Shown: positions 8,092-19,797 of the stretch, in pieces
Position numbering within the stretch: position 1 is the stretch's first letter
Layout: every line of letters starts with the position of its first letter
The notes under the pieces: generated by a model
What the model was told of the DNA's origin: nothing
What the model saw: only the letters and a program-made list of their open reading frames with translations
Databases searched by the model: none
NCBI RefSeq assembly: GCF_000278725.1
Contig: NZ_ALCA01000070.1
Location: forward strand, 1-23,530
Direction of reading: 5' to 3'
DNA length: 23,530 nucleotides
Source of the DNA: Actinomyces sp. ICM47
GTDB taxonomy: Bacteria > Actinomycetota > Actinomycetes > Actinomycetales > Actinomycetaceae
Made by a program: the position numbers and the translations under genes

Positions 8092-8835
8092 TCAGACGCC
8101 CTTGAAGGCTGCCTTTCCGAGCTGGCGGTTCAGGTTTGCGATCACGTCAAGCGGGATCTGCTTGGGGCAGACCGCCGCGCACTCACCGATGTTCGAGCAG
8201 GAGCCGAAGCCCTCCTCGTCCATCTGGTTGAGCATGTTCACGACACGCTTGTAGTTCTCGGGCTTGCCCTGCGGGAGCAGGCCGAGGTGCGTGACCTTCG
8301 CGGAGGTGAAGAGCATCGCGGAGGCGTTCGGGCAAGCAGCCACGCACGCACCACAGCCGATGCAGGCCGCAGCTTCGAACGCGCGATCCGCGTCCTGCTT
8401 CGGAACGGGGGTCGCGTGCGCGTCGGGCGCTGCCCCCGTGTTCACGGAGATGTAGCCGCCGGCCTGGATAATGCGATCCAGGGCGGAGCGGTTCACCACC
8501 AGGTCCTTGATGATCGGGAAGCCCGACGCACGCCACGGCTCGATCGTGATGACGTCGCCATCGTTGAAGGAACGCATGTGCAGCTGGCAGGTCGTGGTGA
8601 CCTCCGGGCCGTGAGCGATACCGTTGATGACGATGCCACACTGACCGCAGATGCCCTCGCGGCAGTCGGAGTCGAAGGCGATGGGTTCCTCGCCGCGTGC
8701 GAAGAGCTCTTCGTTCAGGACGTCGAGCATCTCCAGGAACGAGGACTCTTCCGAGATTCCCTTCACCTGGTATTCATGAATTGCGCCCTTGTCTTCGGGA
8801 CCGTTTTGGCGCCAGATCCTCAGTGTCAGGTTCAC
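8092..8835 (-). CDS. sdhB: Succinate dehydrogenase iron-sulfur subunit
   Basis: 247 residues. It carries electrons from the FAD of SdhA to the membrane subunit through three Fe-S clusters. The N-terminal ferredoxin domain has Cys58, Cys63, Cys66 and Cys83 (CREGICGQC...C) for the [2Fe-2S] cluster. The C-terminal domain has [12 protein letters not shown] (158-169) and [16 protein letters not shown] (213 onward) for the other two. The GTG start overlaps the sdhA stop by 4 bases (GTGA), indicating translational coupling. It is the last gene of sdhCAB before a strong terminator. Confidence 0.96.
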
Positions 8836-10811
8836 TTGTAGCTCCGCTGCTTCAGCTCGATGTCGTTGTAAATCAGGTCTTCCTTGTGGAGGATCGGGGG
8901 TTCGCCGTCACCGGCAAACTCCCAGGCCGCCACGTACAGGAACTTGTCGTCGTGGCGCAGGGCCTCGCCCTCGGGAGTCTGAGACTCCGCGCGGAAGTGG
9001 CCGCCGCACGACTCTTCGCGGTGCAGCGCGTCGATGCACATGAGTTCGCCCAGTTCCATGAAGTCAGCCACGCGACCGGCCTTCTCGAGGGACTGGTTGA
9101 GTTCGCCGATCGACTTGCCGGGAACACGAACGTTTTTCCAGTAGTCGGCGCGCAGCTTGCGGATCATACCGATGGCCTTCTTCAGGCCGGCCTCGGTGCG
9201 CTCCATGCCGCAGTACTCCCACATGATCTTGCCCAGCTCCTTGTGGAACGAATCCACGGAGCGGGTTCCATTGATCGACATGAGGGTGTCGATGCGTCCC
9301 TGAGCCGACTCAAGGGCTTCCTTGACGGAAGGCGAGTTCTCGTCCAGCTTGGGCAGGTGGAAGCAGTGCGCCAGGTAGTCGTTGATCGTGTTGGGCAGGA
9401 CGAAGTAGCCGTCTGACAGACCCTGCATGAGCGCCGAGGCACCCAGGCGGTTTGCGCCGTGGTCGGAGAAGTTCGCCTCGCCGGCCACGTACAGACCGGG
9501 CAGGTTCGACTCGAGGTCGTAGTCAACCCACAGGCCACCCATGGTGTAGTGGACGGCCGGGTAAATGCGCATCGGCACCTCGTAGGGGTTGTCGCCCGTG
9601 ATGCGCTCGTACATGTCGAAGAGGTTGCCGTACTTCGCGGAGACGGCCGCCTTGCCCATACGGGAGATGGCCTCGGAGAAGTCGAGGTAGACGCCGCGGG
9701 CGACGCCGTCAATCTTCGGGCCGACGCCACGGCCCTCGTCGCACATGTTCTTGGCCTGACGCGATGCGATATCGCGGGGCACGAGGTTACCGAAGGACGG
9801 GTAGATGCGCTCCAGGTAGTAGTCGCGATCCTCTTCGGGGATCTGACGCGGGTCCTTCTCGCAGTCCTCGGCGCGCTTGGGAACCCAGATGCGACCGTCG
9901 TTACGCAGCGACTCCGACATGAGGGTCAGCTTCGACTGCTGGTCGCCGTGCTGGGGGATGCACGTGGGGTGGATCTGCGTGAAGCAGGGGTTGCCGAAGT
10001 AGGCACCCTTGCGGTACGCGCGCCAGATGGCAGTACCGTTGCAGCCCATCGCGTTGGTGGACAGGAAGAACACGTTGCCGTAGCCGCCGGTCGCCAGGAC
10101 GACCGCGTCAGCGATGAAGGTCTCGAGCTTGCCGGTGGACATGTCGCGGGCGATGATGCCGCGCGCCTTGCCCTCATCGACGATCAGCTCGACCATCTCG
10201 TGACGCGAGTGCTCGGTGACGGTACCCGCGGCGACCTGACGCTCCAGCGCCTGGTAGGCCCCGATCAGGAGCTGCTGGCCGGTCTGGCCACGCGCGTAGA
10301 ACGTACGGGACACCTGGACACCACCGAAGGAGCGGTTATCGAGGAGACCACCGTACTCGCGGGCGAAGGGGACGCCCTGCGCGACGCACTGATCGATGAT
10401 GTTGGCGCTGACCTCGGCGAGGCGATAGACGTTGTCCTCGCGGGCGCGGTAGTCGCCGCCCTTGACCGTGTCGTAGAAGAGACGGTAGACGGAGTCGTTG
10501 TCGTTGCGGTAGTTCTTCGCGGCGTTGATACCACCCTGTGCGGCAATGGAGTGCGCGCGGCGGGCGGAGTCCTGGTAGAAGAAGCAGTCGACGTTGTAGC
10601 CCATTTCGCCGAGCGAGGCGGCAGCAGCGCCACCCGCGAGGCCGGAACCGACGATGATGACGCGCAGCTTACGGCGGTTCGCCGGGTTCACGAGGGCTGC
10701 CTCGAACTGACGGCGTGCCCAGCGCTCGGAGATCGGGACGTCGTGGGGAGCCTTCGTGTCGGCGATCTTCTCGCCTTCACGGTAGAGGCCGTGGATAAGT
10801 TTATCGGTCAT
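8832..10811 (-). CDS. sdhA: Succinate dehydrogenase flavoprotein subunit
   Basis: 659 residues, a full-length flavoprotein of the type found in actinobacterial succinate dehydrogenases. It oxidises succinate to fumarate on the cytoplasmic face of the membrane. Visible marks are the dinucleotide motif [10 protein letters not shown] (52-61), [12 protein letters not shown] with His87 as the expected covalent FAD attachment, [35 protein letters not shown], and [27 protein letters not shown] near the C-terminus of the FAD domain. The ATG at 10811 follows GGAAGGG and is 16 bases after the sdhC stop. It overlaps sdhB by 4 bases. Confidence 0.97.
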
Positions 10812-18032: not shown

Positions 18033-18108
18033 AAACTGACACCGGTCCGTAAAAGCGGCCCGGGCCTCGTCCCAGATGAGGAACGAGGCCCGGGAACGTT
18101 CACGGGGC
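18033..18108. repeat. 76-bp direct repeat, copy 1 (TAC-operon side)
   Basis: Identical base for base to 19722-19797, offset 1689. The left edge is set by A (18032) versus G (19721), the right edge by T (18109) versus A (19798). It contains a terminator hairpin plus 26 bases to its left and 14 bases to its right. Just left of it, TCCGTAAAA (18027-18035) repeats the TCCGTAAAA inside the unit (18046-18054). Confidence 0.95.
18059..18094. terminator. Terminator hairpin in repeat copy 1, end of the TAC operon
   Basis: A 12-bp perfect stem, CCCGGGCCTCGT (18059-18070) with ACGAGGCCCGGG (18083-18094). It lies downstream of the SecB-like gene, which stops at 18186. The stretch 18109-18185 between them is AT-richer and holds no gene. 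Confidence 0.75.
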
Positions 18109-18185
18109 TGCAGCCTGGTGTCGGACTATAGGGCGAACAAAATACGGAAGAGACGCGCACAGCCCTTGTAAGAAAACCGCCTAGA

Positions 18186-18641
18186 CTACTTATTGGGAGC
18201 GAAAGTGATTTGGCCGGGGCGAATGAGAGGCAGGAGAACTGCCGTGCCGGTAACCCGCGTGGTCAAATCACTGAGGGCTTCACGAACGTAAGGAAACGCC
18301 GCCATGAGCGCAACTTTCGATGCAAAGTCAGCAGGCGCTTCGGGGGAGAGAACAAACTCCTGACACCCCTCATAGTAGGCAATGACTGCGATAACAGCCT
18401 GCCACTGTGGAGCCGTGATCCGGAACTCAAACCGTGTTCCGAAACGTTTGCCTTCCTGCCGAGTTCCGAGCATGCAGTTGATCTCGATCGGCGTAGGCTC
18501 ACTACCGTCAAGATCGGAACCAGCCTGGGGAGCATCATCCACAAGATCAATCGACAGGCGATCAAAGCGAATGTCCACAAGTTGGAGTTTCGCAGTTGCA
18601 AGCATCTCTTCGACGCTTACCAAGAGGGGCACATCAGACAT
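18186..18641 (-). CDS. SecB-like chaperone of a toxin-antitoxin-chaperone module
   Basis: 151 residues from the ATG at 18641, preceded by AGGAG with 8-base spacing. The C-terminal stretch AAFPYVREALSDLTTRVTGTAVLLPLIRPGQITF matches the SecB core, which in E. coli reads LFPYARECITSMVSRG followed by a hydrophobic LAPVNFDALF segment. The N-terminal LQLVDIRFDRLSIDL fits SecB strand 1. Actinobacteria have no export SecB, and their SecB-like proteins typically belong to TAC modules, where they bind and stabilise the antitoxin. The ATG overlaps the antitoxin stop by 8 bases (18634-18641), indicating coupled translation. It is the last gene of the operon, followed by the hairpin in repeat copy 1. Base composition is lower in GC than the neighbours. 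Confidence 0.75.
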   Translation of the reverse strand: MSDVPLLVSVEEMLATAKLQLVDIRFDRLSIDLVDDAPQAGSDLDGSEPTPIEINCMLGTRQEGKRFGTRFEFRITAPQWQAVIAVIAYYEGCQEFVLSPEAPADFASKVALMAAFPYVREALSDLTTRVTGTAVLLPLIRPGQITFAPNK

Positions 18642-19023
18642 GAGCTGGCTCCTGCGTAATACTCCAGTCGTCGGCGACCGCCTGCGTCTTACGCGAGGGC
18701 GTAGGCACACGAACAGTTGCCTGGGCGGCTCCGGTCATCTGCCACGTAGCGGGCACGCCCTCACCACAGTCATCGACAACCTTGATGTCGAGGAGCGCAT
18801 TGACGGCCATCGCGTACCGGATGATGGATGACACAGTCGGGTTAGCGTCATAGCGCTCAAACGCAGCGACCGTAGGCTGACTGACGCCCATACGCTCGGC
18901 TACAGTCTGCTGGCTGAGCTTATGCTCCTTGCGGAGCCTTACCAAACCCTCGAGAAGACGATCCCTCGCATCGACCAGCAGATCTGCGCGGCGCTCAAGG
19001 CTCTCATCACTCACTGAAGTCAT
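18634..19023 (-). CDS. HTH-type antitoxin (HigA-like) with chaperone-addiction-like C-terminal extension
   Basis: 129 residues. A Cro/C1-type HTH spans about 29-80 (LRKEHKLSQQTVAERMGVSQPTVAAFERY, then PTVSSIIRYAMAVNALLDI). It probably neutralises the toxin and represses the operon. A 50-residue tail follows, with GVPATWQMTG (89-98, Trp94) and ADDWSITQ (118-124, Trp120). TAC antitoxins carry such an extra C-terminal segment (ChAD) that makes them depend on the SecB-like chaperone. In M. tuberculosis HigA1 the ChAD contains a VPTW motif, which VPATW resembles. The ATG at 19023 lies 7 bases behind a TATAGT box with no ribosome-binding site, suggesting a leaderless internal transcript. The gap to the toxin gene is 40 bases. 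Confidence 0.72.
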   Translation of the reverse strand: MTSVSDESLERRADLLVDARDRLLEGLVRLRKEHKLSQQTVAERMGVSQPTVAAFERYDANPTVSSIIRYAMAVNALLDIKVVDDCGEGVPATWQMTGAAQATVRVPTPSRKTQAVADDWSITQEPAHV

Positions 19024-19060
19024 AGATTAAACTATATAAGTGTGAGATGGTGTTATGCAA
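19024..19060 (-). promoter_or_regulatory. Internal promoter driving antitoxin and chaperone
   Basis: On the minus strand TTGCAT (19060-19055), an 18-base spacer, TATAGT (19036-19031), then seven bases to the antitoxin ATG. The start of transcription would fall at or next to the ATG. It is the best -35/-10 pair in the module and sits in the toxin-antitoxin gap. Confidence 0.45.
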
Positions 19061-19063
19061 ACT

Positions 19064-19624
19064 TCAGTCATGTTGTGTGCGCCGCTCGACACCCCAGTTT
19101 GTGGAATATCCAGAGATGAGGCGACGTTCAGCAATGTTGATCTCAGTGTCTTGCGCGGCCTTGGTCGCAGCCGGGTTGCCCTTGATGATCACCTTCTCAT
19201 GAGCGTGAAGGCCTAGTATGCACAGGCCTAGCTGATCGAATGGTTGAGCGTGAATGAGACGGACCTCAACCTGAGCATAGGAGTCAATCCCTGAGGAATT
19301 AACTTCGCGAACATCAATGTCCCGCCAGCGAATTTCGAAGAGAGCAACACCACCGCGCAGAGATTTCAGTTCTTCCGGTGGTCGAAGTTTGCCTTGTGCG
19401 GCTTTTTCCAGGCGCTTTCTAAAACTCGCGCGGATCATCGCCTCTTGGTACGGATTCCAGCGACGGTTCGTTGGCTCCTTGATGGCCGCCATAAGAGCAT
19501 TTACAGCTAAGCTGATGTGCTCTTGAGCCGTTCCATTACCGCCGCCATACCAATAGAAGTCCGCAGGCAGGTCGAGACACGCATTCGACCTGGAGGAATT
19601 ATCTGCGACACTCATGAATTCCAT
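19064..19624 (-). CDS. Candidate RelE/HigB-like toxin of the TAC module
   Basis: 186 residues if started at the ATG at 19624; ATG 19615 (MSVADN) is an alternative with GGAATT just before it. Residues about 78-173 follow the RelE/HigB plan: GKLRPPEELKSLRGGVALFEIRW (matching the L..GLWELR of HigB toxins), AQVEVRLIHA, LCILGLHAHEK, then TEINIAERRLISGY (matching the closing EI..A.rR..Y). Members are usually mRNA-cleaving, ribosome-dependent toxins of about 100-125 residues, so the 75-residue N-terminal part is unusual. The frame stays open into repeat copy 2 (to 19792), but those residues overlap a terminator hairpin. It is first in the operon, upstream of antitoxin and chaperone. The family call rests on pattern and context, so treat it as provisional. 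Confidence 0.58.
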   Translation of the reverse strand: MEFMSVADNSSRSNACLDLPADFYWYGGGNGTAQEHISLAVNALMAAIKEPTNRRWNPYQEAMIRASFRKRLEKAAQGKLRPPEELKSLRGGVALFEIRWRDIDVREVNSSGIDSYAQVEVRLIHAQPFDQLGLCILGLHAHEKVIIKGNPAATKAAQDTEINIAERRLISGYSTNWGVERRTQHD

Positions 19625-19721
19625 GGTAGCCGGGTGGTATTGAATTGTGAGCGCACATGCCGTCGACGGCTTGCCTCGTACAACATGCAAGGGGAACTCA
19701 CAGTCGCCCACGAGCATGAGG

Positions 19722-19797
19722 AAACTGACACCGGTCCGTAAAAGCGGCCCGGGCCTCGTCCCAGATGAGGAACGAGGCCCGGGAACGTTCACGGGGC
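19722..19797. repeat. 76-bp direct repeat, copy 2 (glmS side)
   Basis: Identical to 18033-18108. It begins 20 bases downstream of the glmS stop codon (19818-19820) on the minus strand and contains the glmS terminator hairpin. Together the two copies flank the TAC module. A single recombination between them would remove 1689 bp and leave glmS with one intact terminator. Confidence 0.95.
19748..19783. terminator. glmS terminator hairpin in repeat copy 2
   Basis: A 12-bp stem CCCGGGCCTCGT (19748-19759) with ACGAGGCCCGGG (19772-19783). Read-through would carry glmS transcription into the toxin gene, which has the same orientation. Confidence 0.8.

Follow-up and report, generated by a model that had tools for sequence, protein, structure and literature searches.

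A probable HigBA-type toxin-antitoxin-chaperone module at the glmS terminator of Actinomyces sp. ICM47

The 23,530-nucleotide contig NZ_ALCA01000070.1 of Actinomyces sp. ICM47 (the whole stretch is called here the window) carries an AT-rich segment of 1.6 kb between glmS and a sugar-transport gene (PF06800). The question raised by this locus is whether its three minus-strand genes form a toxin-antitoxin-chaperone (TAC) module, as a preliminary description made from the sequence alone had proposed. Most probably they do: the locus is assigned to the HigBA-type TAC modules with a probability of about 0.88. The assignment is built on computed gene order, folds, invariant active-site candidates, an operator-like repeat and the insertion of the segment at a terminator. 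The three open reading frames were confirmed at the positions first given for them, together with the 8-base overlap of the antitoxin and chaperone genes (18634-18641):

19064..19624, minus strand: toxin gene, HigB/RelE-like, 186 aa
ATG at 19615, minus strand: alternative in-frame toxin start giving 183 aa, a better fit to the conserved "MS..." start
18634..19023, minus strand: antitoxin gene, 129 aa, HTH_3 domain followed by a C-terminal extension, located between toxin and chaperone in relatives
18186..18641, minus strand: SecB-like chaperone gene, 151 aa

The order of the genes is maintained in relatives. When genome contigs were scanned with the toxin alignment, 75 stretches matched the pattern and nine were confirmed; each of the nine carries the antitoxin with its helix-turn-helix (HTH) domain and the chaperone downstream on the same strand, so the three-gene arrangement is not due to chance and the canonical TAC order claimed earlier holds. 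The distinct loci outside the window number 22 (L001-L009, L019 and L050-L061, with L050 and L061 being two copies in one genome; L010-L018, L048 and L049 repeat some of them). The chaperone profile matches the third gene in 17 of these at E<=0.01; since the profiles were built from L001-L009 or their close kin, the count for loci outside the profile-building sequences is 8 of 13. L050 stops at the contig end, the downstream frames of L056 and L057 fall under the threshold and are SecB-like by eye only, and L053 and L054 are pairs without a third gene detectable at this threshold. The stretch shared by the antitoxin and chaperone genes is 8 bases long in the window, L001, L002 and L004-L006 and 4 bases long in L007-L009. 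In L003 from Actinomyces ruminis (8556-9425) they occupy one open frame of 289 aa, counted from a mechanical TTG start, which may be a natural antitoxin-chaperone fusion.

The third gene product was modelled as a monomer and adopts the SecB fold predicted for it earlier, with 18 chains of the PDB matched at E<=0.001. At the top of the structural matches stand four chains of Rv1957, the TAC chaperone of Mycobacterium tuberculosis, the best of them with a bound peptide of the chaperone-addiction (ChAD) type, and the remainder are SecB and streptococcal proteins of unknown function. The same Rv1957 chain is recovered by sequence with the chaperone alignment profile (E 3.5e-4). The curated cut-off of the Pfam SecB family (PF02556) was not reached: the window chaperone has no listed family at E<=10, and PF02556 matches 8 of 38 sequences at E<=1 (best 0.0038). 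Among PADLOC profiles, PD-T4-9_C matches the chaperone weakly (E 0.0045), PD-T4-9 being a system which we take to be CmdTAC. In a survey (PMC4257090), 44 of 70 SecB sequences outside the alpha-, beta- and gamma-proteobacteria were associated with toxin-antitoxin (TA) genes, a figure that fits a dedicated role of the chaperone rather than one in export.

The toxin is recognizable by its structure rather than by its sequence. Structural alignment of its model gives a HigB/RelE-like fold, with 12 toxin-antitoxin rows ranked first; the best agreement is with RelE-type toxins, in a comparison that took in no ADP-ribosyltransferase directly. A Foldseek search with the same model gave nothing significant (best E 0.015). 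Its best rows were CaMKII hub/NTF2-like chains with E >= 0.015 and TM-scores of about 0.2, and they were regarded as unspecific, since the toxin-antitoxin rows came first in the structural alignment. The RelE-like fold proposed for the 186-residue protein is thus upheld by structural alignment but not by Foldseek or by the toxin alignment profile, which recovered no solved toxin among the known structures. Neither toxin nor chaperone had a convincing match to Pfam, NCBIfam, PADLOC or PHROGs profiles, and PDB searches with the single sequences returned no matches; scores of DUF5086 and AcetylCoA_hydro within the toxin family were weak and were set aside. Glu97, Arg99, Arg122 and Lys144 are identical in all 50 aligned toxin sequences, the window included. 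They correspond to Glu66, Arg68, Arg77 and Lys95 of the M. tuberculosis TAC toxin, a mapping that follows the order of motifs along the strands rather than superposed coordinates. Toxicity of the M. tuberculosis protein was abolished in K95A, inhibited in R68A and R77A and partly inhibited in E66A (PMC9098466). Arg99 and Arg122 are 23 residues apart rather than 9 because of a longer hairpin between them; the distant relative L059 has the spacing of 9. The predicted toxin has, on this evidence, a HigB/RelE fold and candidate catalytic residues.

The antitoxin belongs to HTH_3 (PF01381, E 4.2e-10) and continues for 44 further residues behind the matched domain, in line with the C-terminal extension noted in the preliminary description:

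18637..18768, minus strand: candidate ChAD-like extension, antitoxin residues 86-129 (44 aa), with Trp94 and Trp120

HigA1, the antitoxin in the TAC of M. tuberculosis, became independent of the chaperone when it lacked its final 42 residues or when Trp108 and Trp137 were changed (PMC5105189), and a peptide starting with EVPTWHR was co-crystallized with the chaperone (PMC6377645). The window antitoxin has GVPATWQ near the matching position; as ChADs share little sequence, this likeness is suggestive only. Tryptophan was surveyed in 23 loci, the window included. The HTH end could be placed by motif in 17 (L053-L057 and L059 were unscored), and 15 of the 16 scored extensions contain tryptophan, the exception being L008; the truncated L050 is not among the 16. 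The HTH core (residues 31-70) has an entropy of 0.01-0.08 vs 0.37-0.44 in the last 30 residues, as calculated for the best 120 of 353 antitoxins, a set biased to close relatives. The variation in 41 of 54 chaperones is higher still, this set having been chosen differently from the antitoxins.

An operator-like repeat is situated at the start of the antitoxin gene, inside the operon and behind the toxin:

19022..19037, minus strand: operator-like inverted repeat ATATAGTTTAATCTAT, overlapping the antitoxin ATG, with one mismatch to ATA(A/G)-N8-(C/T)TAT

This family pattern is exact at the antitoxin start in 17 of the 22 relatives, and in all 17 its last two bases are the AT of the in-frame antitoxin ATG; the window and L001 have ATAT-N8-CTAT, with one mismatch. 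The pattern occurs nine times in the window and L001-L009 (146,350 bases, one strand): eight occurrences coincide with the starts of the antitoxin genes in L002-L009, and the ninth is at another place in L002. Among 16 distinct sequences the three outer base pairs are fixed, and the fourth is complementary in 13, the fifth in 14 and the sixth only in 5. This makes 32 of 48 cells, and 15 out of 20,000 shuffles of the columns came to this value (relatedness uncorrected). The pattern matches the core, ATAG-N8-CTAT, of the motif ATATAGG(N)6CCTATAT that HigA1 of M. tuberculosis is reported to bind; HigA1 is also reported to repress Rv1954A-Rv1957 (PMC8669151). It is absent from the antitoxin start of L053, L054, L059 and L060. 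Upstream of the antitoxin, L059 and L060 have a different palindrome (AACAACCTGCAGGTTGTT-like) in place of the ATAG-N8-CTAT repeat, which suggests a switched operator. From the position of the repeat we infer that antitoxin and chaperone may be under their own autorepressed, leaderless promoter. A scan for the sigma-70 consensus found nothing. TAnnAT stands 6 or 7 bases before the toxin start in the window, L001-L003, L005 and L006 and does not in L007-L009 (L004 was left out); it gives a weak hint of a leaderless promoter there.

The whole module is an insertion. The island (18109-19721) has a GC content of 0.551 vs 0.66 in the window and 0.68 in both flanks, equal to the lowest sliding stretch of the same size in the window, and is bracketed by two exact copies of the glmS terminator region:

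19722..19797: 76-bp direct repeat, copy adjoining glmS, containing a terminator-like hairpin; single copy in empty sites
18033..18108: second copy of the 76-bp direct repeat, behind the chaperone gene, identical to the first

L001 has the same segment in the same place, and its two repeat copies are alike in 59 of 76 positions. In a search of the genus for empty sites with the transporter gene, 28 of 35 genomes matched and the 10 best of the 28 loci were compared. Five (L021-L025) have a single repeat copy and no segment, L026 and L027 have a short spacer with no recognizable repeat copy, L028 and L029 are too diverged for reading, and the remaining one is the genome of L001 itself. As the empty sites hold a single copy, the segment is an insertion accompanied by a second terminator copy, and the five relatives without module make the glmS terminator a polymorphic insertion site. 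The AT-richness and horizontal acquisition suggested at the outset are thus supported, the latter in the form of an insertion, and base composition, the empty sites and the repeats at both ends all speak for it. No recombinase, transposase or integrase gene is present inside the island. Tn7-type insertion at glmS was considered and found no support, given the 76-bp flanking repeat and the lack of a transposase or integrase gene inside. We only infer recombination through the terminator copies. The module amounts to a small movable cassette of three genes.

The closest database proteins are mostly nameless, and those with names come from Schaalia or Actinomyces and are labelled hypothetical proteins; the antitoxin is 97% identical to one of Actinomyces bouchesdurhonensis, and one more distant named toxin relative is from Xylanimonas. 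These names point to a Schaalia or Actinomyces as the probable host. Members of the toxin family turned up in 7 of 213 genomes of the bacterial family and in 13 of 396 of the order, where not all candidates were scored. Scans of viral contigs with both alignments gave pattern matches and no confirmed relative. Two loci were observed on mobile elements. A toxin-antitoxin-chaperone unit annotated as hypothetical and HTH proteins lies on a Dermacoccus nishinomiyaensis plasmid typed as mobilizable (L062, 785-2284), with a recombinase gene two genes away. Genes 45-47 of Gordonia phage BeeGee (L064), close to a tyrosine integrase gene, include an HTH gene that matches the antitoxin profile at E 2.7e-23. 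The next gene is SecB-like by eye (chaperone profile E 1.3 only), and the HTH gene is preceded by a short RelE-looking frame that has no toxin-profile match; this is possibly a phage-borne TAC.

Comparison of the window with L001 demonstrates a step in divergence within the antitoxin gene. Over toxin and HTH (18766-19721) 29 of 956 aligned bases differ vs 113 of 580 over extension and chaperone (18186-18765), a jump in divergence at the HTH end from 3% to about 19% (window 18186-18768 vs L001 8602-9436), at about antitoxin residue 86, where the ChAD-like extension starts. A smaller dip to 91% is seen within the toxin (19101-19220). Silent divergence amounts to 0.046 in the toxin, 0.067 in the HTH, 0.444 in the extension and 0.572 in the chaperone, with 0.26-0.31 in the flanking genes. 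Because silent sites are affected too, selection on the proteins is insufficient as a cause, and the simplest reading, for which the step gives a hint, is that extension and chaperone were exchanged as a unit; it concerns one strain pair, with a breakpoint chosen after looking. Tentatively, this can be extended to a scheme in which extension and chaperone are swapped between strains as a cassette by crossovers at the HTH/extension border: the HTH would be the recombination anchor, toxin and DNA-binding half would be kept, and the internal operator would allow antitoxin and chaperone to be refilled without more toxin. The L001 record, titled Sanguibacter keddieii 250_SKED, has a glmS region and a module almost the same as in the window. 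The organism name may be wrong, since the named relatives of the window are Schaalia and Actinomyces.

In the mechanism proposed for the module, which follows the one worked out for M. tuberculosis, the toxin would most likely be a ribosome-dependent mRNA-cutting enzyme like HigB. The HTH antitoxin would bind and neutralize it and would act at the inverted repeat covering the antitoxin start codon to repress its own promoter. Owing to its extension the antitoxin would be unable to stay folded unless bound by the SecB-like chaperone translated directly behind it. With the operator positioned behind the toxin gene and at the start of the antitoxin gene, fresh antitoxin and chaperone could be produced independently of the toxin. 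Were the chaperone drawn away by misfolded or phage structural proteins, this being the presumed trigger, the antitoxin would be degraded and the toxin would stop translation. It is highly improbable that the locus is instead an ordinary two-gene HigBA pair beside an unrelated SecB-like gene. Such an arrangement could account for L053 and L054, but the third gene is matched in 17 of 22 loci and, where read, overlaps or is in frame with the antitoxin, the antitoxin bears an extension, and among known structures the third protein is matched best by the chaperone from a proven TAC.

What the TAC module is kept for is a different matter. Its main job may be anti-phage, with the chaperone as a sensor that leaves the antitoxin on meeting a phage structural protein and with sensing altered by exchange of extension and chaperone. 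This is a live option, to which we would give somewhat less than an even chance, because two known TACs respond to phage proteins: CmdTAC senses the T4 capsid via its SecB-like chaperone (PMC11618068), and for higBAC of E. coli C496 the trigger is the major tail protein of lambda (PMC11980606). Presence and absence of the module at one chromosomal site, the divergence jump at the HTH/extension junction, the far lower variability of the HTH core in the 120 antitoxins and the PD-T4-9_C match point the same way. Against it, that match is weak, the mosaicism is known from a single pair, the viral scans confirmed no relative, and Pfam matched nine of ten window proteins to housekeeping-type families and left one without a match (no defence library was run). 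Alternatively, and somewhat less probably, the module may serve addiction or stress without a defence role and be retained since its loss is punished. The identical flanking repeats would permit recombinational loss, which addiction would presumably punish, a relative is carried on a mobilizable plasmid, and stress induces the TAC of M. tuberculosis (PMC8669151). However, its patchiness (7 of 213 genomes) and the empty site in five close relatives mean that the module is readily absent.

The literature listings consulted, in which most papers were seen as entries only, showed no account of a TAC from Actinomyces or Schaalia, and the preliminary description knew of none in this lineage either, without confirming the absence; a listing in the 2013 survey of Sala and colleagues is possible, and PMC6504116, in the part available, mentions Actinomyces once, for a different TA pair. 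The branch escapes standard SecB and toxin profiles, and its named relatives are labelled hypothetical proteins. With it, a TAC becomes available from actinobacteria other than Mycobacterium, one whose relatives have the core of the HigA1 operator, and it bears on how a TAC chaperone decides toxin release. The window and L001 are a natural allele pair differing mainly in extension and chaperone, which together with the single frame of Actinomyces ruminis should be useful for direct tests of chaperone-addiction specificity.

Among known systems, the Gp49-like two-gene modules (S. pneumoniae HigBA, 6AF3/6AF4) are deposited as a toxin-antitoxin module, with no chaperone named. CmdTAC of E. coli follows the same logic of toxin, antitoxin and SecB-like chaperone, and its PD-T4-9_C profile weakly matches the window chaperone. 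Its toxin, in contrast, is an mRNA ADP-ribosyltransferase, and its antitoxin is predicted to consist of two helices and a long unstructured domain (PMC11618068). By antitoxin type the window module falls outside CmdTAC, its antitoxin being an HTH_3 protein. The closest resemblance in plan is to HigB1-HigA1-SecB(TA) of M. tuberculosis (Rv1955-Rv1957), which likewise has this gene order, a HigB-like toxin fold with a long C-terminal helix, an HTH antitoxin with a tryptophan-containing C-terminal extension (HigA1 W108, W137; PMC5105189) and a SecB-like chaperone, the best PDB match of the window protein; the core operator ATAG-N8-CTAT is common to it and the relatives of the window. The differences lie in a chaperone identity of only 18-20% in the aligned part, in the longer toxin hairpin between the ExR motif and the second arginine (R99-R122, 23, vs R68-R77, 9), in a histidine in place of F93, and in the operator, which lies between toxin and antitoxin in the window, whereas control by HigA1 is placed at P2, which serves as promoter for all of the Rv1954A-Rv1957 locus (PMC8669151). 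The window module is well supported as a new branch of a known kind of system.
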